From Vigna angularis (taxonomy: Eukaryota; Streptophyta; Magnoliopsida; Fabales; Fabaceae): a stretch of 64,000 nt of DNA. Shown piece by piece: positions 1 to 54,545 of the stretch. Numbering within the stretch: the first letter of the stretch is position 1; each line of letters begins with the position of its first letter. A program made the position numbers and the translations under genes. The DNA is taken from NCBI RefSeq assembly GCF_016808095.1, contig NC_068977.1, positions 25,383,364 to 25,447,363 of the forward strand, read 5' to 3'. Under the pieces are notes generated by a model. That model saw only the letters and a list, made by a program, of their open reading frames with translations, made no database searches and was not told the DNA's origin.

Positions 1-1550
1 CTGGATGTCTTTCTTTGCTGGGGAACGCGAAGATAGCTGGACGTGGAGGTGGTGTTGTTGCAGCTGTCCGAGAGCTTCTCTTCCGTGTGCGTGATGGTGC
101 TGGAGCTGGACCAGCTACTGCTTCTCCCATTGTGCTCCTCCTTCAAACGTTGCCGCCCTTGCTGCCAAGACCGTGAAGCACCTTGCTGCTGGATGCTTGA
201 AATTGCTGTCATGGCTTTGCTGGACCATGACACCTCTTCTCCTCCACATAGTGGACGTCAAAGTGCTAGCCCTTCATGTGTGCATGCAGCGGTTGCTTCC
301 CTTCTTCCAGCTCTACTCTCATGTGCTCACCAAAGCTACGTCTTAATTGATTCTCCATGCTCATAGTGCAGCCATGGGCTTCAAAAACTGCTGGACTGGG
401 AAACTGGGAGAGGCGGCTGGAGCTTGAAGCTTGCTGGACTACACCCAAGCGCTGCTGCTTCTGCTTCTTGCCATGACCGTGGCTGCTTCTGGATGAGAGG
501 TCGTTGCTGCCGGATTCCTTCAACGTGGCCCTTCTTCTTCATGAGAATATTATTTTCTAAGTGATGAACGGATCTTGGCCGTGAGCTTCCTGGTGGCTGC
601 TGGTAGATACTGGATTGGCTCCTTTGGACGTGCTGGACTTCAGGTGCTACTGGTCCGTGGATTTCTTTCTCTGTTGCCAGCTGCTGGATGCATTGAAGGA
701 CCGAAAACTGCTTCTATTTTTGGTGGACAATCCATTCACTTCTTCCCAGCTGGAGTAAGAACGTGCACACCAATACTTTTCATTTTTGGAAGACGTAACA
801 GTACCCCTTTTTTGAATGTAGATTGATTTCATTTAAGTGGTGGTTGTTGTTCTCTTTCCGTGTAGATGTTTCTCTTCTCAAATGAAAAAAAAATCATTTT
901 CCAAGTGATGGATGGACCCCATAGGTTGAAACATGTTCCTTGTGATTTTCTCCAATTGCTTAGTCACGTTCCAGCTGCCAAAATAAGTTGTCCTATGTGT
1001 AATGGAAAATCTGCACATTAGCCAAAGTGAATGGACTGTAACACCACTTTTATTAATTCAATAAAAATTTAGCACTTCATTTTGGAGTTCCTCCCAACTA
1101 AACCGTGACTTTCAATAGGTGGTGGCTCCCACTTTCTAAGAAATTTCTCCATTTTGTCTTAGGCCGTGAATATTTTTCCAGAACAGCCTCCACTATAATG
1201 TTGTCTCCACAATATTAAAATAAAGGAAACATTGGTTGCCACTTCCAACGTACACACTCAATCATGGCCGTGAGATGCATTAGGAAACCATCAAAGAATT
1301 AAGTTGCTCTCTTCTACTCATTTAGCCAATTCGGTGCTCTTTCAAGTGTTCCAAAATATTATTCAATATTTTCCCTGCAATTACTTATACAAATAATTAG
1401 CTCAGATAATTCAAATTAGTTAAAATAAGAATTACTGGTTAATTTAAGCACAATTAGTAAAAACGGGAAAATACTTGACAATTAAGCACAATTCCCTGAT
1501 TAATTTTAGCACAATAAACTAAGTGAAATGTAAAAAATATTGATTCATCA
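1..1550 (-). mobile_element. Element A 3' LTR (cut by window start)
   Basis: Matches 8232-9781 essentially base for base. The one difference I noticed is C at 579 versus T at 8810. It ends in ATTCATCA, with the terminal CA at 1549-1550. On the element strand it is the 3' LTR. The segment just inside it (1551-1580) reads on the minus strand as an AAGTGTGG-type tract, the usual position of the polypurine tract in Athila/Tat elements. Open frames inside it, such as 43-366 and 575-826, occur identically in both LTR copies and are not treated as genes. Confidence 0.93.
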
Positions 1551-3213: not shown

Positions 3214-3221
3214 TATAAATA
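3214..3221 (+). promoter_or_regulatory. TATA box of the antisense homeodomain gene
   Basis: GGCTATAAATAGGCC sits on the + strand, opposite to element transcription. About 25-35 bp downstream begins a CT-rich leader (3250-3330), typical of plant mRNA 5' ends. The preceding ~80 bp (3135-3210) is less AT-rich than the surroundings. Confidence 0.65.
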
Positions 3222-3417
3222 GGCCGCTCCTCCGCGTCGAGCGCCATTTCTAACTTCCCCACTCTCTCCCTAACTCTCTCTCTACTCCTCTCTACTCCTC
3301 TCTCTACTCCTCTCTCTTCTCCTCTGAGCGTCTGGAGCCTGCGCGGAGCCTCTGCCACCGCGCCTTCTGAAGAGTCTGAGATCAGCGAGGAGCTCCTCTG
3401 CCAGCCTACTACTCCAG

Positions 3418-4037
3418 GTAAGTCATCTGCACCTAGATCTACCTTTCTTTCTGCTTTCATTTACATTTTTCTTTCTTCTTGCACTTTCTCAGCTTTTCTC
3501 ACCCTCTCCCTTTTCCTGCTTTCTTGTATATTTTTTTTTCTTTCTTTTCTGCAATACTTGTCCTCTCCCCCTGCCCGATCTATCTTCTTTCTTCTCCTTT
3601 TCAATTTTTTTTTTCATTTTTCTGAAACTTAAAACACTTAAACGCATAAAACATAACTGTCAAAAACGTAAGGGGTATATAGGCTGGAAACCAGACGTTA
3701 ATCTCCCTTCGATTGAAGGTATTGCAGAGACAATCGGGTAGAACAACGCCACGTACCCCACTAAAAAAAAATAAAACACAGAAACTTAATATACAAGAAC
3801 AATATGGACAAGGACAACTGGACAACTGGACGTAGATCCGTTTAGGACCCTTTTGCAAGGACCGTGAAACAGATCTGAGACCAAATACAGAAACAATCAA
3901 AGACAGACAGGACAAATAAATCTATAAGGAAACAAGAACAAATAAAGAAAACACTCAACTAAGAATCTAATTTATTTATGCTTTTTTGCTTTTTTTTTCT
4001 TTTTATATTTTTTTTTTATGTTTAAGAAAACTAGCAG
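3418..4037 (+). other. Predicted 5'UTR intron of the antisense homeodomain gene
   Basis: The donor CCAG|GTAAGT at 3417/3418 is a full plant consensus. The acceptor is CTAGCAG ending at 4037 (or CTAG ending at 4034), preceded by a long T-rich tract. The first exon, about 3246-3417, contains no ATG that I can see, so it would be leader only. A leader intron would separate the promoter from the coding exons by ~0.6 kb. Confidence 0.55.
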
Positions 4038-4044
4038 AGGAAAG

Positions 4045-4592
4045 ATGACGAGCGAGATGGAATCAGAGAGATACACCAGTCAGCGGTGGCGTCCTACCGA
4101 AGATCAGACCCAGATGATGACCAGAATCTACAACTTTGGGGTCACACACCCAAGCCGAGCGCAAGTCGTCGAGATCACGTCTCGACTAAGGACCTTCGGA
4201 GATGCCAGCGAATACAACGTGCACTGGTGGTTCAACAACCACGGCAATCGGGTCAGGCGCTGGCAAGCAGAGATAGACCCCACTGGCACTCAGTTTTCAC
4301 AACTGCCGCTATATATGTACGGTAAGACTCTGATCAAATCTCCATTTTTATTGATTTTTTCCTTTCCTCTACTATTATTAACACAATTTTTTTTTTGTTG
4401 AAAGAATACGACTGGGTGATAATGAGGGCACCGAGGCTGCTGAATCTGTTTCCCGTTCCGATCATCATTGACGATGATAGAGATGAGAGACAAATCCCTC
4501 CACCCATGCTTCTCACATTCCGAACCAGAGCTCCCTCAACGGAGCTCTCCCTTAGACCACCACAACCAGCTCGAGAATTCTTCCAGTTTTAG
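4045..4592 (+). CDS. Antisense WUSCHEL-type (WOX) homeodomain protein inside element A, 2 coding exons
   Basis: Predicted DNA-binding transcription regulator of 154 aa, exons 4045-4321 and 4405-4592. The intron of 83 bp starts GTAAG and ends GAAAG, and joins a split codon in frame. Residues 12-76 align with the WOX homeodomain: TSQRWRPT at the start, HPSRAQVVEITSRLRTFG over helices 1-2, and NVHWWFNNHGNRVRR for helix 3, where WF and N (homeobox positions 48, 49, 51) are kept. WOX family members usually read NVFYWFQNHKARER here. Residues 104-111 read LLNLFPVP, close to the WUS box (TLxLFPxx). TELSL at 138-142 resembles an EAR repressor motif. The ATG at 4018 is in frame but lies before a plausible splice acceptor, so 4045 is chosen. 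It runs antisense to gag and is not part of the retrotransposon polyprotein. Homology is read by eye; expression is unknown. Confidence 0.75.
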
Positions 4593-4822
4593 TGTTTTAT
4601 GTTTTTTTTTTTTTATATGTTTTTGCTGGCCGAGTGTGGCCAGAATAAGGGCTGTAATATGAACACTTATATTTTTGTTGTTTTTGTTTTTTATGTTTTT
4701 ATTTATTATGGTGTGTAATATTAACGATCAGAAATGATCGAACAACTTTATTTATGTTTTTATGTATTTTATTTTAATTATCAATGTAAGACAGAATGTT
4801 TTCTGCAAATTTGGTAAGTTTC

Positions 4823-4828
4823 AATAAA
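4823..4828 (+). terminator. AATAAA poly(A) signal downstream of the homeodomain gene
   Basis: TTTCAATAAATGC lies 230 bp past the stop codon, after T-rich and TGTA-containing 3' UTR-like sequence. Weaker AATAAG (4644) is an alternative. Confidence 0.4.
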
Positions 4829-5295
4829 TGCACTCAGATAGTTTCTCTGCTCAAACTTCACCTCTGCCCCATTACTACAACTTGTATTTTTATTTTTTTT
4901 ATATTTTTTTTTATTTTTTAACAAAAACTAAATAAATAAATAAAAAAAACAGAACACACATTAACGAAACAAAAGACCTAATACATAATTAAACTATAAA
5001 AGCGGATAAAACACATATGTCAAAAACAGCAAACAAAGAACATATTTACAAAACATACATTAACAAAATAACAGACTTGAAACAAAACACAAATTTTTTT
5101 TTTTTTTTAAAGATAATAATTCGTAAACTAAGAAATAAATACACATATTAGAATAAAGATTTGATACGCTTAAAACAAAATATTTTATCACAAAGATTTT
5201 TTTTTTTTTTTAAATTTTTTTTTTTTTAAGATAACAATTCGAAAACTAAAAAGAAAAGGTAAAACAAACTTAAAAGAAAAACAAAATGCAGACTC

Positions 5296-5433: not shown

Positions 5434-6966
5434 TCAGGGTGGCAGTTGCCAATTTTGGATTTGTAGGGAGATGTTCTTCTCTTCAGGATCCAGCATTAAA
5501 TTGTTGAGGACGAACTGCTTCATCCTCCAAATCTGATCAAGCAGGGAAATATCCTCCACCGCCGGATCTAAGCAGCAAATATTGTTTCTGAGCAGATTCA
5601 GTAGGTGCCTTTTGATCTTCGAACTGTTGTATGTACTGGCACCTTTGTCTTCCAGCGTGGGTGCATGCTGATCAAATTTATATGTACCTCCTGCAATATG
5701 GTTAGTGCAAAATGGTTCCACAGAAATATCATGCAGGGGTATAACACCCAATCCCAATTCATCATACTGAGCCTTAGATACAACCTCATAACATGAATCC
5801 GTTTCAAATGTACAAACAATATCTATAACAGGTTCAGATTCATGTTCAGTGCATGGAGAACAAATATTTGGATCTGATAACACAAAATTATTCTCATCAT
5901 GCATAGAGGGAAAATTAAAATCATGCTCAGCAACAATATAATTATCCGCATACATATCAACAGCATAATTATTAACATAATCATGAATAGCATAATCATA
6001 CTGAGGTATGCTTACCTCCACTTCCTTGAAGATTGGTAAAGTAGTGGAGGATGAAAGTAGTCTACGTGTCTCAACATTACTGCTTATTCTTGCCTGGGTC
6101 TCAAAATGTTCGTCAGCCTCTTCAGGTGCAAGAGTGGGAACATAAGATGATGTGAAAGTAGGTGGTGTAGTGAACACGTGACTCTGGTTCTCATCTCCTA
6201 TGTTGATGGCCATCTGCCCCATTTGATCACTCAAAATCTGCATGGCAGCTTGAGTTTCCTGTTGAATCTTCATGCTTTCTTGCTTGAACTGAATGCTCTG
6301 CATGGTCATCTGCTCTAATAACTCCTTCAATGTAGGTTCAGAAGTTGAAGGCTGAGGAGTTGTTTGGGCAGAAGCATTATACTGCTGACTCTGATATTGC
6401 TGGACTGGTGGAGGCATGAAAGGACTCTGGAATGGTGGTTCTTGATAATGATCTTGTGGGGCATCGTACCATTCGTTGTTAAGATTGTTCCACTCAGGAT
6501 CGTTGATGTATCCATACTGCTCAGGGGAGAATTTGCTCACAAACTGAAGCTCAAGATATCCCCAATCGGTAACGGATCCTAGAGGAAGAGAGTCTTGCCA
6601 ATCCTTAGCTGCTCCTTGTAATGAGTGCGGAAATGCCCTCAAGAAAATGTGATCAAGAGGGACATGTGGAGGCTTCATTGAAGAGCAAATGTTGTGGAAC
6701 TCCTCCAAATGTCTATGTGGGCATTCTCCAGCAAAACCATGAAACTTAGGGAGCAGATATATCAGTCCAGTGCTAAGAACACAATAAAAATCATCCTTTG
6801 TAGGTGGGACCGGCTCACGAGGAGTGAGCTCAAGAAATTGAGGATGATCCATATTTTTCTCAGTATTAAAATCAGCACAAAAATCAGAGTAATATGCAGA
6901 AAGAGAATCATAATTACAGGCACTCGCAGAATAAGCACTATTCACATAATTAAAATAGGTAGACAT
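5434..6966 (-). CDS. Gag-like protein of element A (510 aa, intact)
   Basis: Structural protein expected to package the element RNA. The N-terminal third (about residues 70-150) has the Athila/Tat gag signature: FAGECPHRHLEEFHNICSS, then a valine-proline segment, an AFPHSL-type motif and AAKDWQDSLP. The usual central gag block is missing. The frame jumps from FSPEQYG to a Q/P-rich stretch and a QMTMQSIQFKQ / QILSDQMGQM helix, which in relatives lies near the gag C-terminus. The remaining ~230 residues are acidic and I do not recognise them. No zinc knuckle and no DSG/DTG protease motif are present. Start is the first ATG of the frame. An uninterrupted 510-codon frame fits the near-identical LTRs and a recent transposition. 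Confidence 0.85.
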   Translation of the reverse strand: MSTYFNYVNSAYSASACNYDSLSAYYSDFCADFNTEKNMDHPQFLELTPREPVPPTKDDFYCVLSTGLIYLLPKFHGFAGECPHRHLEEFHNICSSMKPPHVPLDHIFLRAFPHSLQGAAKDWQDSLPLGSVTDWGYLELQFVSKFSPEQYGYINDPEWNNLNNEWYDAPQDHYQEPPFQSPFMPPPVQQYQSQQYNASAQTTPQPSTSEPTLKELLEQMTMQSIQFKQESMKIQQETQAAMQILSDQMGQMAINIGDENQSHVFTTPPTFTSSYVPTLAPEEADEHFETQARISSNVETRRLLSSSTTLPIFKEVEVSIPQYDYAIHDYVNNYAVDMYADNYIVAEHDFNFPSMHDENNFVLSDPNICSPCTEHESEPVIDIVCTFETDSCYEVVSKAQYDELGLGVIPLHDISVEPFCTNHIAGGTYKFDQHAPTLEDKGASTYNSSKIKRHLLNLLRNNICCLDPAVEDISLLDQIWRMKQFVLNNLMLDPEEKNISLQIQNWQLPP

Positions 6967-7373
6967 GAAAAATAAAAATAAAAACTAAAAACTAAAAATT
7001 ACGAAACAGATAGAACAAAACACATTTATACATGCTACAAGCACACACAAGACAGAACATCAATAGTAAAAAATTTTAATTAAAATTTTTCTTTTTGTTT
7101 TTTTTAATTTTTTTTTTAATAATTTTTTTTTAATTACAACTAAATACAGCACATAGCACAATTAAACACATATATACACAATATATATTAACACAATAAA
7201 AATCTAAAAAAAAAAAAAAAAAAAAAAACCTAGAACTGAAGTGACAACGCCGCCAAAATTTGCTGAAGGTGTCGTTGTCGCCTACAAAAATATACAAGAC
7301 AAAACACACAAAACAAACATATTAACAGAACAAAACTTTATACAACAAAAATCTAAAACCAAACCTCCATTGG
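6967..7373 (-). other. Untranslated leader of element A
   Basis: Lies between the primer site and the gag start. It is AT-rich with an A-run at 7207-7228 on the + strand and no open frame of note. Its first ~150 bp (7229-7373) match 13803-13950 in element C, which marks both as one family. Confidence 0.7.
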
Positions 7374-7391
7374 TCCCCGGCAATGGCGCCA
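7374..7391 (-). other. Primer binding site, tRNA-Asp type (element A)
   Basis: The minus strand reads TGGCGCCATTGCCGGGGA. This is complementary to the 3' end of plant tRNA-Asp apart from one base (ATT where the tRNA complement has GTT). Its place immediately inside the LTR fixes the element as minus-strand. Confidence 0.9.
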
Positions 7392-7396
7392 AAATT

Positions 7397-9781
7397 TGAT
7401 ACGACTGTCGCGGTCATACAAATTTTATACAACAAAATTAATGCAGTACAGTGCTAGGAAGTGACTCCTAGGTCGTCTCTCGAGGACCAAATTTGGTGGT
7501 TCAGTCTCAGATCTAACACGCAGGGGGGGTTGTGGATGTTTTGTGCGGTAATTAAAATTAAAAGTGAAAATTAAACACAACTGAATTTAAAAACACTGAA
7601 ATAAATTTCAAAGACTATAAAACCAAACGGTAAATATGCAGAAACGGTAAAATTTAACAGTAAAAATAACAGCATTTTCAAAATAAAATTTATCAAACAT
7701 TCAACATTAAATTAAAATGACTGGAAAGTGAAGATAAAAATCAAATGATAAAACTGTTTCAATAACACAATACACCTTCAGAAATAAAAAAAACTACATT
7801 GCACTGTTGGAAAATAAAAATTAAGAGAGTTTGCTACTAGAAATGGAAAAGGAAAAAAAAAGCCTCTTCCAAACCGTGAGTTTTACTAACTACTCCTGAA
7901 ATCTAATACTAAATTCTACTCGGGGTTGTTCCTTGTTCCTTCTCTGCCTGCTGCTTCATTTTATAGCCAAAGCTCAGAACAACTCCCATAGGATGCTCTC
8001 TCATTCAACTTGGTTCCTTGCACAAATTTCTGAGCAATAGCTTCTTGCCCGTGAGAAAAAAAGGTGAGGGCCCCTTCATTTTTTTTGCACCTACTCTTGT
8101 CATCTTGTTCACCACTTTGCCGTGAACATTCTTCTTTTACGAAAATGGTTTTCATGGCTCCCATTCCAAGTTGTGGGCTCCTTTCTCCATTCATTCTACT
8201 TCCATCAGATCGTGTTTGTGGCTGCTCAAAGCTGGATGTCTTTCTTTGCTGGGGAACGCGAAGATAGCTGGACGTGGAGGTGGTGTTGTTGCAGCTGTCC
8301 GAGAGCTTCTCTTCCGTGTGCGTGATGGTGCTGGAGCTGGACCAGCTACTGCTTCTCCCATTGTGCTCCTCCTTCAAACGTTGCCGCCCTTGCTGCCAAG
8401 ACCGTGAAGCACCTTGCTGCTGGATGCTTGAAATTGCTGTCATGGCTTTGCTGGACCATGACACCTCTTCTCCTCCACATAGTGGACGTCAAAGTGCTAG
8501 CCCTTCATGTGTGCATGCAGCGGTTGCTTCCCTTCTTCCAGCTCTACTCTCATGTGCTCACCAAAGCTACGTCTTAATTGATTCTCCATGCTCATAGTGC
8601 AGCCATGGGCTTCAAAAACTGCTGGACTGGGAAACTGGGAGAGGCGGCTGGAGCTTGAAGCTTGCTGGACTACACCCAAGCGCTGCTGCTTCTGCTTCTT
8701 GCCATGACCGTGGCTGCTTCTGGATGAGAGGTCGTTGCTGCCGGATTCCTTCAACGTGGCCCTTCTTCTTCATGAGAATATTATTTTCTAAGTGATGAAC
8801 GGATCTTGGTCGTGAGCTTCCTGGTGGCTGCTGGTAGATACTGGATTGGCTCCTTTGGACGTGCTGGACTTCAGGTGCTACTGGTCCGTGGATTTCTTTC
8901 TCTGTTGCCAGCTGCTGGATGCATTGAAGGACCGAAAACTGCTTCTATTTTTGGTGGACAATCCATTCACTTCTTCCCAGCTGGAGTAAGAACGTGCACA
9001 CCAATACTTTTCATTTTTGGAAGACGTAACAGTACCCCTTTTTTGAATGTAGATTGATTTCATTTAAGTGGTGGTTGTTGTTCTCTTTCCGTGTAGATGT
9101 TTCTCTTCTCAAATGAAAAAAAAATCATTTTCCAAGTGATGGATGGACCCCATAGGTTGAAACATGTTCCTTGTGATTTTCTCCAATTGCTTAGTCACGT
9201 TCCAGCTGCCAAAATAAGTTGTCCTATGTGTAATGGAAAATCTGCACATTAGCCAAAGTGAATGGACTGTAACACCACTTTTATTAATTCAATAAAAATT
9301 TAGCACTTCATTTTGGAGTTCCTCCCAACTAAACCGTGACTTTCAATAGGTGGTGGCTCCCACTTTCTAAGAAATTTCTCCATTTTGTCTTAGGCCGTGA
9401 ATATTTTTCCAGAACAGCCTCCACTATAATGTTGTCTCCACAATATTAAAATAAAGGAAACATTGGTTGCCACTTCCAACGTACACACTCAATCATGGCC
9501 GTGAGATGCATTAGGAAACCATCAAAGAATTAAGTTGCTCTCTTCTACTCATTTAGCCAATTCGGTGCTCTTTCAAGTGTTCCAAAATATTATTCAATAT
9601 TTTCCCTGCAATTACTTATACAAATAATTAGCTCAGATAATTCAAATTAGTTAAAATAAGAATTACTGGTTAATTTAAGCACAATTAGTAAAAACGGGAA
9701 AATACTTGACAATTAAGCACAATTCCCTGATTAATTTTAGCACAATAAACTAAGTGAAATGTAAAAAATATTGATTCATCA
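7397..9781 (-). mobile_element. Element A 5' LTR (complete, 2385 bp)
   Basis: Starts TGATACGAC and ends TTCATCA on the + strand, with TG/CA termini and a 4-bp TGAT/ATCA inverted repeat. The primer site lies 5 bp inside its left edge. A TATA box for the minus strand sits at 7959-7965, so most of the LTR to its right is U3. The U3 contains repeated CCGTGA motifs, all on the + strand. Confidence 0.95.
7957..7966 (-). promoter_or_regulatory. TATA box of element A LTR
   Basis: The minus strand reads CTATAAAATG. It lies about 560 bp from the inner LTR end. The equivalent motif is present in related LTR C at 14572-14578, in the same sequence context (GGCTATAAAATG). Confidence 0.7.
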
Positions 9782-11514: not shown

Positions 11515-12643
11515 GATCTTGGATGTGGCAGTTTGTCCCATGGATTGAGTCTGTTACAGGAAGGCAAGAGTAGTGGGAATCTGAAGACTAATGAATCTAA
11601 CAAGGTATGCTTTTTTATAGTTATTTATGGCAGCAAGAATAGCAGGAAAATCTAAGGAAAAAATAATGATAGTTAGTGAGTACCATTGTATATATTCAGT
11701 TTTTTTAAAATTTTATTTTATTTTATTTTATTGTCGTATTTCTCTGTAACATTAGGAAAATGTTGGGGAAGATGTTGTTGGTGCAAAGAATGAAGTTAAG
11801 AGTGACAATCAAGCACCTGAAAACAAGAGAGAGACAGAGAAATCCATCCCGGTAACAAAGAAAGAAGATGAAAATCCTACACCTTCAAAGGCGGTAAGAT
11901 CAATTTTCTGAGCACCTTAAGCTGAAAAAAACTTCTCACCCTATCAAATCCTACTCATGTAATAGAAAAAAAGAACAAGAAATGAATAGGATCCTTATAC
12001 ATGACTATAGTCATTTGATGGTTTCAACATGGACAATTGATACACTATAATCAACAATTTACTAGTCATCTAGATGGAGGCTGGTTATCTAACTTCTAAA
12101 AATAGTATCTTCTTCAAGTCTATTTTCTTTTACTCCCTATATGATTTTGTGTTCTTATATACTAATTGCTTGTTTGCAGGAAGCTCCTGACAACGAGTTC
12201 GAGAAGCGCATAAGACCAGAGATTATCCGAGCAAATGAAATAGGGGTTACATTTGCAGATATTGGTGCATTGGATGAGATCAAAGAATCACTTCAAGAGC
12301 TGGTAATGCTTCCCCTTAGAAGGCCTGACCTCTTCAAAGGTGGACTTCTAAAGCCGTGTAGAGGTATAATATTGCTTTTTGGGCCTCCTGGTACTGGGAA
12401 AACAATGCTAGCAAAAGCCATTGCAAATGAAGCTGGTGCAAGTTTCAGTAATGTCTCAATGTCCACTATTACATCAAAAAGGTTGGAGAAGATGAAAAAA
12501 ATGTCCGAGCTCTATTCACACTAGCAGCTAAGGTTGCCCCAACAATCATCTTTGTTGACGAGGTCGACAGCATGCTTGGACAGAGGACTAGAGTGGGAGA
12601 GCATGAGGCCATGAGGAATAGGAATATTTTACACCAAACCTTT
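11515..12643 (+). pseudogene. Truncated AAA-ATPase gene fragment (3 exons, frameshifted)
   Basis: Exon pieces at about 11515-11604 (LSHGLSLLQEGKSSG), 11756-11893 and 12180-12643 have good GT/AG borders. They encode the linker and first half of an AAA domain of the plant microtubule-severing/spastin-like ATPase family: EFEKRIRPE, then GVTFADIGAL, Walker A GPPGTGKTMLAKAIA, and Walker [14 protein letters not shown]. An indel near 12478 breaks the frame where relatives read SKWFGEDEKN; the downstream frame resumes as [11 protein letters not shown]. The segment after EHEAMR diverges into a stop (HQTF*) instead of continuing into the second half of the ATPase domain. Both ends are missing, so it is a non-functional fragment. 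Whether it is a decayed resident gene or a transposon-captured piece cannot be told from this window. Confidence 0.8.
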
Positions 12644-13068
12644 TAGGTATGTTGTATCATATATGATAAGAATTTTAAGACATTAGAATTTTGTAAATTG
12701 GTTGTGAAACTGTATTGCTCATATAGTTTGGTTCAATTATTTATGTGAATTGTGTCTTAGTGAATGTTTCATATTTACGTGAATTGTCTATGGGAATTCT
12801 GGGATGATGTCACAAAAATCATAGAACCTATTACTATACTCTTAGTATACTACATTAGAAATGATTGTCCTTTCTTCCTAAAGATTTGAATGTATAAAGA
12901 TAAAATCCATTAAAGTTATTTGTTGTAACTTTCTCCTTAAAGATTTAAATATATAAAGATGTTTCAGTTGATGGAATTGAGGTTATAAATCTTCTAATTT
13001 ATGTTCGTCTAACTGTTTGTCTTGATACTATTAGTCATTCACTCTATTTGATTGTATTGGGATGTTAC
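12644..13068. other. Intergenic, no gene seen
   Basis: AT-rich sequence between the ATPase fragment and element B. It ends in GTTAC, the left target duplication of element B. Confidence 0.6.
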
Positions 13069-13249: not shown

Positions 13250-13440
13250 CACCCCTCTAAAACTAAACTCTCTAAAGATTTAATTCCAAGAGAATCCTCA
13301 ACTTCTCAAACTTGTTTTGCCTTAAAGCCTTGGTAAAAATGTCTGCAACCTGTTCTTCTATGGGACAATACACCAATTCCAACTTCCCTTTGCTAACTTG
13401 ATCTCTTAAATAGTGAAACTTGGTCTCTATATGCTTGCTT

Positions 13441-13790
13441 CTACCGTGAGAGACAGTTTTTTGATAAGCTGATTGTTGATCTGTTGTCCACCAATAACCG
13501 TAATGGCTTACTGTATTCGATTTTCAATTCATCTAGAATCACTTCAAGCCATGCGCATTGGCAGGCAGTCTCTGCAGAGGCTATGTATTCCGCTTCATAG
13601 GATGAGAGTGCAACAACGTTTTGCTTCTTTGAGCACCAAGAAATCGATGCCCCCATATACTTAAACAAGTAACCATAAGTGCTCTTCCTATCCACCTGAT
13701 CACCACTCCAATTTGAGTCACGCCATGCTTTCAAAATTCCACCTGTGTTGTTAGTCTTCTTAGGAAAGAGAAGACTGAAATTTGGAGTGA
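13441..13790 (-). pseudogene. Element B RNase H fragment
   Basis: C-terminal end of a copia polyprotein: SNWSGDQVDRKSTYGY, then ALSSYEAEYIASAE with the catalytic E, then [14 protein letters not shown] with the next catalytic D. It stops at 13441 by a stop codon before the usual histidine-containing end. It is preceded directly by truncated element C instead of reverse transcriptase. Confidence 0.85.
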
Positions 13791-13950
13791 CAACTCTGAC
13801 AAGAACCTGGAACTGAAGTGACAACTCCGCCAAAATTTGCTGAAGGTGTCGTTGTCGCCTACAAAAATATGAAACACGAAACACACAAAACACACATATT
13901 AACAGAACAAATATTAACAGAACAAAAATCTAAAACTAAACCTCCATTGG

Positions 13951-13968
13951 TCCCCGGCAGCGGCGCCA
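13951..13968 (-). other. Primer binding site, tRNA-Asp type (element C)
   Basis: The minus strand reads TGGCGCCGCTGCCGGGGA, one mismatch to the plant tRNA-Asp complement. Confidence 0.88.
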
Positions 13969-13973
13969 TTTTT

Positions 13974-16369
13974 TGATGAGAGGGTCGCACCTCACACAAA
14001 ATTTGAGCAGAAAAGAATGCAGTATAGACTAGGAAGTGACTCCTAGGTCCTCTCTCAAGGACCAAATTGTGTGGTTCAGTCTCAGATTTTTTTACACGAA
14101 GGGGGGGGTTGTTTGTGATTTTTGGTTTTGTGCGGAAAATAAAATTTACAACTGGAATTTAAATAAAACAGAATTAAAAATACTGAAATAAATTTTAATG
14201 GTGGTAAAAACTGAACGGTAAAAGACGGTAAAAATGGAACAGTAAATATGCAGAAACGGTAAAATTTATCGATGCATAAAACAATAAACGGTAAAATAAA
14301 AGAGACAGTAAAAATAAAAGCACTTGACTGAAAATGAAATTTATCAAAGATTCAATACTTGAAATTAAATTCCTGGACAGTGAAAATAAAAATTATAGTA
14401 ACACACTACATGCTTCAGAAATTAAAACGCGCACTGTTTAAAATGGAAATGAAAGAGCTTGCTACTGGAAAAGAAAAGGAAGAGGCAGAAGCCTCTCCCA
14501 GACCGTGAGTTTCTTACACTACACCTAAACTAGACTAAAATCTCCTCCTCAAATCTCTGCTGCTGCTTGCATTTTATAGCCAATTCTCTGTGACACATTC
14601 CCGTAGGAATTAGTCTGCTGCCTAGTCTACTGCCCGTTTTGGTTTGTAGCAGGTTTTGTTTTTGTCTCCCATAGCTTGAAGACTTTCTTCACCAATTTGC
14701 TCCTAGTTGTGCCAGCAGAAAATATAAGGTAGGACCCTCCATTCTTCACCTAAGCTTGTCCTCTTCTTCACTTGTGCCGAGACATGCTCACCCTTCTCCA
14801 AGACCATTCCAACGTTTCACTTCTTCTCCCTTCACACATTGCAGCTGCTGGATTCTTCTCTCCAAGCTTCAACCGTATGGCATCAACACATGGAGACTTC
14901 TTCTTTGATGGACCTTGAGCTGCTGGACTGTACTGGACTGGATGCTCTCTACAGCCAAATTTAATGAGCCGTGTGCAGCTGCTGGATGTGAATAACCGAG
15001 AGCTCTCTATCTCTTCTCCTTATTTACGTGAAGCTTTTCCCAGCTGGACCGTGAAGGCCTTCTTCAAGGTGCTGGACGTGTGGAGCTAAAGTAGAAAACC
15101 CGAGAGAAAACAAACGTGGTTGGCTGCACCTTCCAAGCTGCTGTCCCGTGAAGTCTGGATGTTTCTCATGGAATTGGCTGCTGCGTTTCTCCTCTCCTAG
15201 ATGGCCAATGCTGGAACGCTGCTGGTGTGAAGCTTCTTCCTCCCTTCTTTCAACGTTTGGTGGCTGCTCCAAGACCTTGTTGGATGTGAAGACCGTGAGC
15301 TTCTTCATCAAGGAGGTGGCTTCCCTTTAAAACTAAAAACCCATGTGCAGCTCCCCTCTTCAATCACCACATCTATGCCTAGCTTCCTCTTTTCCAAAGC
15401 CAAGGCCGTGAGCTCCTTAGTAAGCTATGCTTGTCTCTTTTGGAATGAAAGAACTCACTCCCATATGCTTTGCTGCTGGATGCTTTCTACGTATTTCACT
15501 AGAACACTCCATTATCAAATTAAAAATCCAAGGCCGTGGCACATCACTTTCTTCACCGTAGCTTCTCCACCATTTTCTTTCTTTCCAATTGAAAAGCCAA
15601 CAATAAAATGTGGTGGCCCTTTCTCCATCCTATTTCACGGTTTTATTCTTTCTAAGCCAAAGAAAAGTTATCCAAGGTGGTGGCTCCCATGTGTTGTCTA
15701 GCCAAGAATAAAATGGAGAAAACACATTTCATTTTTCCATGTGGGCCGTGACACCCCTTTCATATTTGCCTTGGACATAAGTTTTCCCATTCCACAAAAG
15801 CACAAAACCGTGAGCTGAAATATGTGGTCCCTCCATTCACATGTAATGAAATTCTTTGTAGCTTTCAACTATGCACACCATTTTCTCTATCACGTAAGTT
15901 TTCAAAAGTGGTGGCCTTCCATTATTCTTCATAATGCATGTGTTTATCTTATTATAAGCATTGTTCTTGCAAAAATTGTGAACTAAAATATAACTTGTGC
16001 CATCATGGGACCGTGTGCTTTTTATCAATTGAAGAATCAAAACCAATTGTGTGGAGTGGAATAGCGTGAAAAACAATCTGCACATCTCTCTGAATGCATC
16101 TCTTCTCTATGGAGCCGTGTGATGTGTATATTTTACAAACCAATTTTACTTCTTAAAATTTCCAAATGTCCTAAAATATTCTCAACATTTTCCCTGCACT
16201 CAATAATGTAAATAAATAGCTCAGATAATTCAAATTAAGTAAAATAAGAATTTCTGATCAAATTAAGCACAATCAGTAAAAACGGGAAAATACTGGACAT
16301 TTAAGCATAATTTCCTGATTAATTTTAGTACAATAAACTAAGTGAAGTGAAGAAAATAATGATTCATCA
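13974..16369 (-). mobile_element. Element C LTR
   Basis: TGATGAG to TTCATCA. It matches LTR A clearly at the outer ~180 bp and around the TATA box, and loosely elsewhere. TATA box for the minus strand at 14572-14578. CCGTGA is repeated at least seven times on the + strand. Confidence 0.88.
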
Positions 16370-40561: not shown

Positions 40562-43116
40562 TGTAACATCCCAAAATATAGTAAACACCATAATTTAGAA
40601 TTAATCATCATTAACAGTAATCAATGCAGTCTTTACAAAAATAACAGGGCTCAAAAAGCCGAACGGCATAAGTTGCAGCGTTTCAATATACAGATCAAAA
40701 TAACGAACGCTAAACGACGAGCGGTTTTACAAAATACTAAACCGAACGTCTCAAAATAATTAAACATTTACAATCTAAACCAACGAGCACTCTAAGGCTC
40801 AGCTTTAACTTCAACTTCCACCAGATTGGCGTCATCCAAATTTTCTTCTTCCAGCATTTCTTCAAGGGATGCACCACCATCTGCTCACATCCACAACAGA
40901 TGATCATTGCAAGACAGGACGAACGTACATGGACAATTGACAACACAAGGAAAACGAAAGGGTAAGCTTACGTAATTTAAATTCATACTTCAACATTTTT
41001 GTTCAAACCATCACACAATCAACTCATATATGCATAACATCAATCAAACATAAATATACTACTGCTAGACCGACCGTCCGGACTGTATGAATCTGTGTAG
41101 TTACAAGCGTCCTTGCGCCCGAGTGATGTAGTAACTGGGATACACCAAACAGCTGCCACTCGAGGTAAGTCCGTTCTTACGTCGCCCATGTTAACTTATG
41201 GACTAAGGACCTCCTGCCGTTCCCACACATGAATACCCTCTTCTACTTGAAGAGGCGTATCACGGAACATCAGGATGGACAGCGAGTCTTAACTTATCCA
41301 CAGTCATACTTTACCAAATTTAATATCCAATATAGATCAGAGTCGTTCCTCCTTGGAACGCTCGTTCAAATATCAATATCATAACTTCATTTCTTAAATC
41401 GTTCGCACACCTTAACTCTTTCATTAATTCACATTTTTATTCTATGTTCCACTTTTATAAAAAGACGAACGTCAATTAACTGTATGGACGAACGTTAATT
41501 GATATCAGGACGTACGCTATTTAGAAATCAGAACGAACGCTATTTAATAATCAAGACGACCGCTATTTTAATCAAGTAATTATTCAATTGTACGAGCGCT
41601 TGGTAGAAGTCCTTGCGCGATTTAGAATGAACGTTCGATACAAGGCCGAACGATATCAAAGGCGAACGCTCGACATGAGGCCGAACGCTATCGGAGACGA
41701 ACGCTCGACATAAGGTCGAACGATATCAAAGACGAACGCTCGACATAAGGTCGAACGATATCAAAGACGAACGCTCGACATAAGGTCGAACGCTATCGGA
41801 GACGAACGCTCGACATAAGGTCGAACGCTATCGGAGACGAACGCTCGACATAAGGTCGAACGCTACCAATCATTTACCTTTTTGAACGAGCGTTTGGTCT
41901 AAGACCGAACGCCACTTAGGACGAACACTCAATTAGCGTTTCAAATGGGGACGCTCGTTTTCAAGACGGAATCCTTTCCAAATGAAAGAATTTCACTCTA
42001 ATTCAAATTTAGAGAAAACGAACGGTATATGACCGTACGAGGACGAGCGTAATTGATCAATCAGAGAAAATGATATTTTTCCAGACTTTTCAGTTTACAA
42101 TGACTTTACAGATTTTTATACGATCCCTAACTTATGATTTCTCTCCACCATAAATTTCATACATTACAGAATTCATATTATCATTTCATCTCATACAGAA
42201 TTTAATCACATTCAAGATCATACGTTTCATTCTCAACATACAGTGCAACCAATCTTACAAATATACATTTAATACAACAACAGAGTTCGTTCACGCATGC
42301 TTAAACCATCAAACATTTCATACATTTCATACATTTCATACATCCAGTATACTTCAGGCATTTCATAAACATCACACAAGTATTACATTAAATTACTAAA
42401 GCTTCCCTTACCTGGTCTAGTAGTGAACTTCCAAATGCTAGGGTTTCACTCTTGCTCTCACAGCTTCCTATCCAGAAGTTTACTTCACAACTTCCACTTA
42501 ATCTAATACACCAAAATCGTAGACAGATCAGACCCCTAACCCACGCATGCAACCAGAATTTTGGTTCGCATGAACTGAATGGACGAAGTGCAGAGATGAG
42601 AACTTACCAGTTACGGAACTCTAACGTGTTCGGTTCGATCGAAAGCTCCAGACACCGTGAACGATCCTACGGTTTCTGAAATGGAAGCAGAGGTGCTGGT
42701 GGTGAGTGATCTTAGAGAGAAGATGCAGAGTTTAGAGAGAAACTGGAGAAAAGAAATGGCTAGAGTTTCGTAAGGAAGAAGATGAGTGCAGAAATGAGAG
42801 AAAGTGTTTTTCAGAGAAATCATTTCTCTCCCACGTCAAACGGCCATGCAACTCACGTCCTGCCACCTGGTTTCCACTACCGCTTTTAGAGGCTTCTGAC
42901 GTGACAGAAGGCGTCAGCGCATGCAGAGGGTGAATTTCCCTTCCCGCGCAGGACGAACGTCCAACCTCTGCACGCCACTTGTTTTCCACCAACGTTCTTT
43001 GGAACGTTCCCTCAGTGACACATGGCAGGCGCATGCAGATTGGGTTTGACGTGTCAAAATGGGTTTAATGGTAATTAAAGAGTGGATTTAGGTGCCTAAT
43101 TATTCAGGGTCTCACA
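40562..43116. mobile_element. Solo LTR with TSD CTTTT (2555 bp)
   Basis: Begins TGTAACATCCCAAAATATAG and ends CAGGGTCTCACA. It is flanked by CTTTT at 40557-40561 and 43117-43121. It is rich in CGAACG strings and contains a 35-bp tandem array. On the minus strand it starts TGTGAGACCCTGAATAAT, a style common among legume gypsy LTRs; the minus strand near 42410 also has a splice-donor-like CAGGTAAGGGAAGC. No internal domain remains, so it arose by LTR-LTR recombination. Confidence 0.88.
41643..41866. repeat. Six 35-bp tandem units inside the solo LTR
   Basis: Units start at 41643, 41678, 41713, 41748, 41783 and 41818, with a partial seventh at 41853. Each is AGG(C/T)CGAACG, then one of two cores (ATATCAAAG or CTATCGGAG), then (A/G)CGAACGCTCGACAT. 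Core order is 1,2,1,1,2,2. Confidence 0.93.
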
Positions 43117-53439: not shown

Positions 53440-54545
53440 TTTGATGGAGGAATGAAACAATGCTTGTGACATGATGAAGTTAGGTGAAGTCCTGGAACTT
53501 CTGCACCAAAAAACACAGTTGTAATCGATTACAACTCATTGGTAAACGATTACACGAACAAAAACCAAGATTTGTACAGAAACTTGTACTGTAGGAGTCA
53601 GTTGTGCTAACCTAGGTGACCATAGTCAAAATTTTTAATTTTTTGGCATAAATCCACTAGTTTTCACTTGATTTTGGTGTTTAAGTGTGAGTAAAGGCTG
53701 GAAAGTCATGTTTGGGCAACCCCATTATTGAGGAAAGGAACAATGTTTATGAGATGAACAACTTAGATGAAGTCTTAAAACTTCTGCACCAAAAAATACA
53801 CTTGTAATCGTTTACAGATGCTTGGTAAACGATTACACAAACAAAATCCAGGATTTGTACAGAAACTTCTACTGGAGGAAGTCAGTTGTGGTAACCTAGG
53901 TGACCATAGTCAAATTTTTTAATTTTTTGGCATAAATCCACTGGTTTTCACTTGATTTTAGTGTTTAAGTGTGAGTAGAGGCTGGAAAGTCATGTTTAGG
54001 CACCCCATGATTGAGGAAAGGAACAATGTTTGTGAGATGAACAACTTAGATGAAGTCTTGAAACTTCTGCACCAAAAAATACACTTGTAATCGTTTACAG
54101 ATGCTTGGTAAACGATTATACGAACAAAATGCAGGATTTGTACAAAAACTTGTACTGGAGGAGTCAGTTGTGGTAACCTAGGTGACCATAGTCAAAATTT
54201 TTAATTTTTTTGCATAAATCCACTGGTTTTCACTTGATTTTAGTGTTTAAGTGTGAGTAGAGGCTGAAAAGGAACAATGTTTATGAGATGAACAACTTAG
54301 ATGAAGTCTTGAAACTTCTGCACCAAAAAATACACTTGTAATCGTTTACAGATGCTTGGTAAACGATTACACGAACAAAATCCAAGATTTGTACAGAAAC
54401 TTGTACTCGAGGAGTAAGTTGTGGTAACCTAGGTGACCATAGTCAAAATTTTAATTTTTTGGCATAAATCCACTAGTTTTCACTTGATTTTAGTGTTTAA
54501 GTGTGAGTAGAGGCTGGAAAGTCATGTTTGGGCACCCCAGTATTC
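53440..54545. repeat. Four tandem copies of a ~281-bp unit
   Basis: Units start near 53442, 53732, 54013 and 54266. The third-to-fourth spacing is ~28 bp shorter because one end is missing. Each unit includes ACTTCTGCACCAAAAAATAC, GTAACCTAGGTGACCATAGT and GGCATAAATCCACTGGTTTT. Each also carries an inverted repeat GTAATCGTTTAC-N9-GTAAACGATTAC; in the first copy the left arm is GTAATCGATTAC. Confidence 0.9.

Follow-up and report, generated by a model that had tools for sequence, protein, structure and literature searches.

A gene with predicted introns lies antisense in a young, pol-less LTR element

The window analysed here is a 64,000-nucleotide stretch of Vigna angularis (C8:25383364-25447363), and genome searches covered the 448-Mb assembly from which it comes. 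Judged from its sequence, element A at the start of the window is a non-autonomous LTR retrotransposon on the minus strand, with gag and without pol. Its 3′ LTR, cut by the window start, occupies 1..1550 (minus strand) as a direct repeat of 8232-9781. The 5′ LTR (7397..9781, minus strand; 2385 bases, TG...CA) has its start set by the TG and by an adjoining stretch, read from the sequence, that resembles a primer binding site (PBS; 7372..7396, minus strand); a similar stretch is present in 18 of 20 10-kb copies. Between the two LTRs there is a single mismatch over the 1550 bases that they share in the window, so the insertion is young. A gag-like ORF of 516 aa (5434..6984, minus strand) matches PF03732 at E 7.1e-4 and 20.2 bits, under the Pfam cut-off of 24.1. 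We call element A pol-less because, besides gag, no minus-strand frame of its internal region exceeds 130 aa; a reverse transcriptase frame that would place it in the Tat/Retand lineage is likewise absent. A pol-bearing partner was looked for at one gag locus (L049, 2.5 kb, with no antisense ORF among the matches listed), which holds no gag-strand frame of at least 100 aa.

On the opposite, plus strand of element A lies a predicted gene with its own signals. A TATA box, TATAAATA (3214..3221), precedes a CT-rich leader; the leader exon ends at 3417 with the donor CAG/GTAAGT, and a predicted leader intron (3418..4037) closes with an acceptor AG before 4038. Coding exon 1 (4045..4321) opens with the ATG at 4045 and encodes a WOX homeodomain (residues 13-71), as identified by translation, Pfam and structure matches. 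After a predicted second intron (4322..4404), coding exon 2 (4405..4592) carries a WUS-box-like LLNLFPVP, an EAR-like APSTELSLRP and the stop codon, and an AATAAA poly(A)-type signal was read at 4823..4828 of the window copy. Joined, the exons encode 154 aa with zero internal stops. The first-pass annotation had described this layout, down to the two exon 2 motifs and the antisense placement in a young retrotransposon, and all of it is present as described.

Elsewhere in the window, another LTR related to those of element A lies at 13801-16369 (LTR part 13974-16369), together with ~170 bases of internal sequence from its PBS side. The minus-strand frame beside it (13272-13929) resembles a Ty1/copia RNase H remnant. 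Another frame (12093-12650), which resembles part of an AAA-type ATPase, has repeats on both sides. Tandem-like repeats at 41592-41869 and 53442-54522 have spacings of 35 bases and about 251-283 bases.

The antisense product is a WOX-type homeodomain protein

The homeodomain claimed in the first-pass annotation was borne out by the search of the 154-aa protein that it had suggested. Pfam returned PF00046 (E 4.2e-6; 26.9 bits, above the 22.9 cut-off) as the sole match at E up to 10. The TRP28 domain (PF04195) was absent at that threshold, which rules out a TRP28-type, Retand-like antisense ORF (aORF). The best solved-structure matches were STENOFOLIA (9.6e-12) and WUSCHEL (3.7e-11), with the third already at E 0.018; at the sequence level, this homeodomain similarity is far above chance. 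For a 95% identical relative (P0001), the predicted structure has pLDDT block means of 91-97 across residues 21-70 and low confidence outside them (overall mean pLDDT 67.7, pTM 0.45). Foldseek with this model placed STENOFOLIA at the top (E 6e-4), the only match below 0.001, with WUSCHEL homeodomains ranking after it. By its sequence and by the predicted fold of its close relative, the antisense product is a WOX-type homeodomain protein.

Residues that read DNA in host proteins are kept. WUS contacts bases through R38, N90 and R94, according to the available text of PMC7203112, and these match R14, N65 and R69 here; across 38 sequences N65 is invariant and R14 and R69 are at least 90% conserved. 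Both STENOFOLIA and WUS are described as favouring a TGA core (PMC7203112, PMC8329861), and the WUS box as recruiting TOPLESS (PMC8329861). Other positions differ from the WOX norm: clade I, the group that contains the window copy, carries Gly in place of Lys at homeodomain position 53, Asn in place of Ala at 54 and Asn in place of Gln at 50. The changes at 53 and 54 of the recognition helix (and, in clade I, at 50) could weaken DNA binding. At position 47 the window copy has Trp, unlike 24 of the 25 copies examined, in which this residue is Cys; the activity of the window copy may therefore be different.

In the WUS-box-like motif the L, F, P and P are invariant across the 38 sequences. Its leading Thr, with which we take the WUS box consensus to start, is confined to clade III among them. 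Most full-length family members keep both the LFP and ELSL motifs. A permutation analysis of 19 related sequences (the window protein and 18 database proteins) found the recognition helix to be the least variable of eight protein regions, at p 0.0026 before any correction for the other seven regions or for relatedness between the sequences; variability was not significantly low in the LFP (p 0.35) or ELSL (p 0.16) regions. Many database protein models are truncated or fused, and 38 of 74 are missing one or more of three motifs.

Kept WUS-clade motifs fit the idea that the protein acts on the plant, altering the state of the meristem, embryo or germline and so letting the element move at the point where inheritance is decided, and the protein class is one that controls stem cells (PMC7203112, available text). 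We consider this unlikely, however, as the recognition helix is unlike that of host WOX proteins.

The gene recurs opposite gag in a recently active family

An exon 1 query of the genome returned 620 candidates, and the matched frame was stop-free in 145 of the best 150, a fraction biased upward by ranking on similarity. The gag query returned 2851. We paired the best 150 exon 1 matches and the best 150 gag matches, together with 42 of 150 clade III and 25 of 150 clade II matches selected by identity. Among the 150 gag matches listed, 53 have a clade I aORF match within 8 kb; the two lie on opposite strands in all 53 pairs, and in 51 the aORF is 2.2-2.5 kb downstream of gag. For 89 of the 150 gag matches there is no aORF within 12 kb among the matches listed, and related elements may therefore do without one. 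LTR pairs of 99.07-100% identity are present in 13 of 20 10-kb loci, so the family has been recently active; the other 7 hold no such pair within the stretch taken. The unit is an LTR element with an aORF: an LTR pair, gag, and a gene antisense between gag and the 3′ LTR.

At three places (C6:890918-917659, C6:1947086-1972123 and C9:14399964-14416487) aORF matches are spaced regularly at ~8.1-8.8 kb. This spacing corresponds to the length of one LTR and an internal region together, as would be seen if tandem elements shared their LTRs.

In the protein database, 60 clusters with a summed 261 member sequences match, and the displayed NCBI name of each is Vigna angularis. Vigna annotations call element-type proteins WUSCHEL-related homeobox 1, 2, 4, 5, 6, 7 or 8-like (for example P0048, P0062, P0063, P0065-P0068, P0077 and P0078). 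Many Vigna proteins annotated as homeobox or WUSCHEL-related are thus likely to be element genes.

The coding sequence is under purifying selection

We compared 25 clade I copies (the window, L002-L008 and L032-L048, with L029-L031 left out as duplicates of L002-L004). Both exons are open and the GT and AG of the second intron are kept in 25 of 25, a fraction biased upward because the 24 non-window copies came from the best exon 1 matches. Exon 2 of two copies contains in-frame gaps, and the two exons are separated by 79 to 141 bases across the set. For exon 1 the pooled pN/pS is 0.091 (codon bootstrap 0.036-0.182); for exon 2 it is 0.148 (0.080-0.223). Dividing mean dN by mean dS gives 0.084 and 0.112, respectively. 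Exon 2, which played no part in the choice of copies, has a mean dS of 0.386 and a mean dN of 0.043, and its pN/pS is 0.155 when limited to 16 distinct sequences. The other plus-strand frames have pN/pS of 1.5-2.3 and many stops. Two minus-strand frames per exon have 1.1-3.2 and one has 0.21-0.25, which we read as a mirror of the coding frame. The coding sequence of the antisense gene is under purifying selection. A chance ORF is ruled out by this frame-specific constraint together with the homeodomain matches.

The comparison of copies had been set out beforehand in the first-pass annotation, for which disabled copies and a dN/dS near 1 would have counted against a functional gene; the copies turned out intact and the ratio about 0.1-0.15. 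That annotation had also allowed for simple passenger capture, in which a WOX gene was caught by chance and copied along without use. Frame-specific pN/pS of 0.09-0.15, at a mean exon 2 dS of 0.386, disfavours this; for a transduced passenger, pN/pS near 1 is expected. Amplification from a few master copies could give low values too, yet the masters would themselves have needed constraint. Although the 38 of 74 database models that lack a motif and the decay of clade III described below lean towards a passenger, we regard it as very improbable.

A role for the antisense RNA rather than the protein, regulating the element for example through double-stranded RNA, has been proposed for antisense aORFs in a review (PMC7264820, available text). 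Here 21 of 25 copies have a TATA-type box where one is expected, as such a role would have it, and 22 have a leader donor within the interval expected for it. Codon-level purifying selection in the coding frame is unexpected from RNA function alone, however, and makes this account distinctly unlikely.

Nor does service to the host fit well. A meeting report leaves open whether WOX amplification contributed to coastal adaptation (PMC10714607, available text), and a domesticated gene, with the copies as by-products, would accord with that suggestion. Hundreds of candidates and young LTR pairs fit selection at the level of the element better, and the host has WOX loci of its own, about 17 by identity (two are short), so we give host use very little weight.

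Diverged sister clades point to an old lineage

Two diverged groups encode proteins of similar length: clade II (P0055 and others), in V. angularis, V. radiata and V. umbellata, and clade III (P0072, P0077, P0078, P0091), in V. angularis and V. umbellata. Both are multi-copy in the V. angularis genome. Of the 31 clade III matches that reach 82% identity, 11 contain stops, and pooled pN/pS in this clade is 0.16 in exon 1 (mean dN/mean dS 0.31; 20 copies) and 0.63 in exon 2 (0.50; 18 copies); given the stops and the exon 2 value, clade III is partly decaying. Stops occur in 7 of 25 clade II matches at 75% identity or more. That these clades are element-borne is partly shown: among 20 clade III loci (flanks of 1.5 kb), 2 have a similar gag in antisense orientation beyond exon 1, and no gag/aORF pair was seen among the 25 clade II matches and the best 150 gag matches. 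Sequence divergence between the clades would point to an old lineage, contrary to the passenger account.

A 44-row tree that lacks most host classes places the element proteins in a series from clade III to II to I. A second tree included 15 host WOX homeodomains of the 16 sequences taken (L065 was left out as truncated). It joined the element proteins in one group (96/97) beside WOX13 (90/99), on long branches that make the placement unsafe; a WOX2 grouping was not rejected in it (p-AU 0.157). By pairwise score the nearest host gene is L050 (WOX2-like) for clade III, L061 (WOX13) for clade II and L056 (WOX2) for clade I, where the class names of the host genes L050-L065 are our assumption.

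Strand-biased CCGTGA sites mark the LTRs

The 5′ LTR of element A carries 11 dispersed CCGTG sites (7874..9503), all on the plus strand. In 14 LTRs taken together, one strand carries 98 copies of CCGTG and the other 8. These LTRs come from 12 loci (L030-L033, L036-L039, L043 and L046-L048; 13 have a pair, and L045, at 548 bases, was left out) and include two window LTRs (7397-9781, LTR A, and 13974-16369, LTR B), the second from an element that may or may not carry the gene. Roughly 700 bases at the LTR start, over which LTR A and LTR B align at 67%, are not part of the compared pieces. Over the remaining LTR alignment is poor: 10 loci align with the window LTRs for about 170-350 bases, mostly at the end; L039 and L043, whose LTR ends fall outside the loci, gave no alignment with them. 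In the 12 LTR bodies left when L039 and L043 are set aside, CCGTGA is the most over-represented strand-specific 6-mer, with 56 occurrences against 1.3 expected and 4 in reverse, and it is present in 12 of 12. The part of the window from 16370 to 64000 has 3 occurrences on both strands together. TAAT-type and TGAATGA sites number 0 or 1 each in LTR A, LTR B and the internal region.

CCGTGA (TCACGG in element sense) contains the TGA core that WOX homeodomains read, and CGTGA is half of the WUS G-box TCACGTGA (PMC7203112, available text). With the base-reading residues kept and the word enriched in all 12 LTR bodies, it is tempting to see the element-borne protein as a dedicated regulator of its own family that binds CCGTGA in its LTRs. 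We hold this only tentatively and think it doubtful: in L036 the bias runs the other way (1 to 3), and GCTGCT and CTTCT are strand-biased in the LTR bodies as well. Other plant factors, NAC among them, can also accommodate the CGTG core. The bias might equally well stem from a host factor or from a signal at the RNA level as from binding by the element's own homeodomain. Should self-regulation hold, a captured stem-cell homeodomain and an array of TGA-core sites would form a self-regulating circuit inside a parasite.

A proposed account: a captured WOX gene as antisense accessory

Starting from the observed homology, antisense arrangement, intact frame and splice sites, purifying selection and recent activity, we propose that a gag-bearing, pol-less LTR lineage of Vigna captured a WOX gene and kept it as an antisense accessory encoding a nuclear regulator that benefits the element (probability roughly 0.6). 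The gene would have been captured with its introns, in antisense orientation and probably in a single old event, and retained along with a TATA promoter, introns and a poly(A) signal that serve it alone. Running antisense, it would keep its introns in the genomic RNA and so survive retrotransposition. Presumably expressed, it would yield a DNA-binding protein whose homeodomain keeps the base-reading residues of WUS and whose LFP and ELSL motifs probably recruit TOPLESS-type corepressors. This product would most likely act in the nucleus to the element's benefit, on its own LTRs or on host chromatin. The interpretation in the first-pass annotation stands in part: a WUS-type homeodomain gene lies antisense in a family of recent activity and has retained its introns, but passenger capture is disfavoured.

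Comparison with known systems

Amplification of WOX genes within LTRs is already public for Vigna. A 2023 meeting report (K. Naito) describes it in V. marina and V. riukiuensis, with >1000 WOX copies in the latter (PMC10714607). As here, the genes are amplified in Vigna, and they are mostly flanked by identical LTRs with TSDs; the species are others, the available text does not mention orientation, exon structure, gag, selection or sister clades, and the likeness is one of description only. Novelty is therefore lower than first thought. The first-pass annotation had called a homeodomain in this position unusual, which holds for the antisense arrangement and less so for WOX genes within LTRs, given these two other Vigna species: in the open-access journal literature, we found no report of an antisense, spliced WOX architecture, of selection on it or of strand-biased CCGTGA sites.

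The closest architectural parallels are the antisense aORF-3R frames of Grande, RIRE2, Retand and PvRetro13 (PMC7264820, PMC11963269, PMC4093653), which likewise run antisense towards the 3′ LTR and are conserved across copies. The Grande aORF is described as having its own promoter and a nuclear protein. In those aORFs the domain is TRP28, SMC-like or not a known one, and the available texts report no likeness to host genes; here, in contrast, a homeodomain of a host family sits in an element without pol. With WUSCHEL and STENOFOLIA the element protein shares the homeodomain fold, the base-reading Arg/Asn/Arg, the LFP box and ELSL. It differs from them in being element-borne and multi-copy, in its homeodomain (38-50% identical to that of WUS) and in its clade I recognition helix, NVHCWFNNHGNRVRR as against NVFYWFQNHKARERQ. 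Although aORFs are widespread in plant LTR elements, their origin and function are called unknown (PMC7264820, PMC11963269, available texts). The protein described here comes from a host family of regulators whose structure and biochemistry are known, and the selection on it shows that its sequence is in use. Existing WUS and TOPLESS assays therefore offer a way to test what an antisense accessory protein does.
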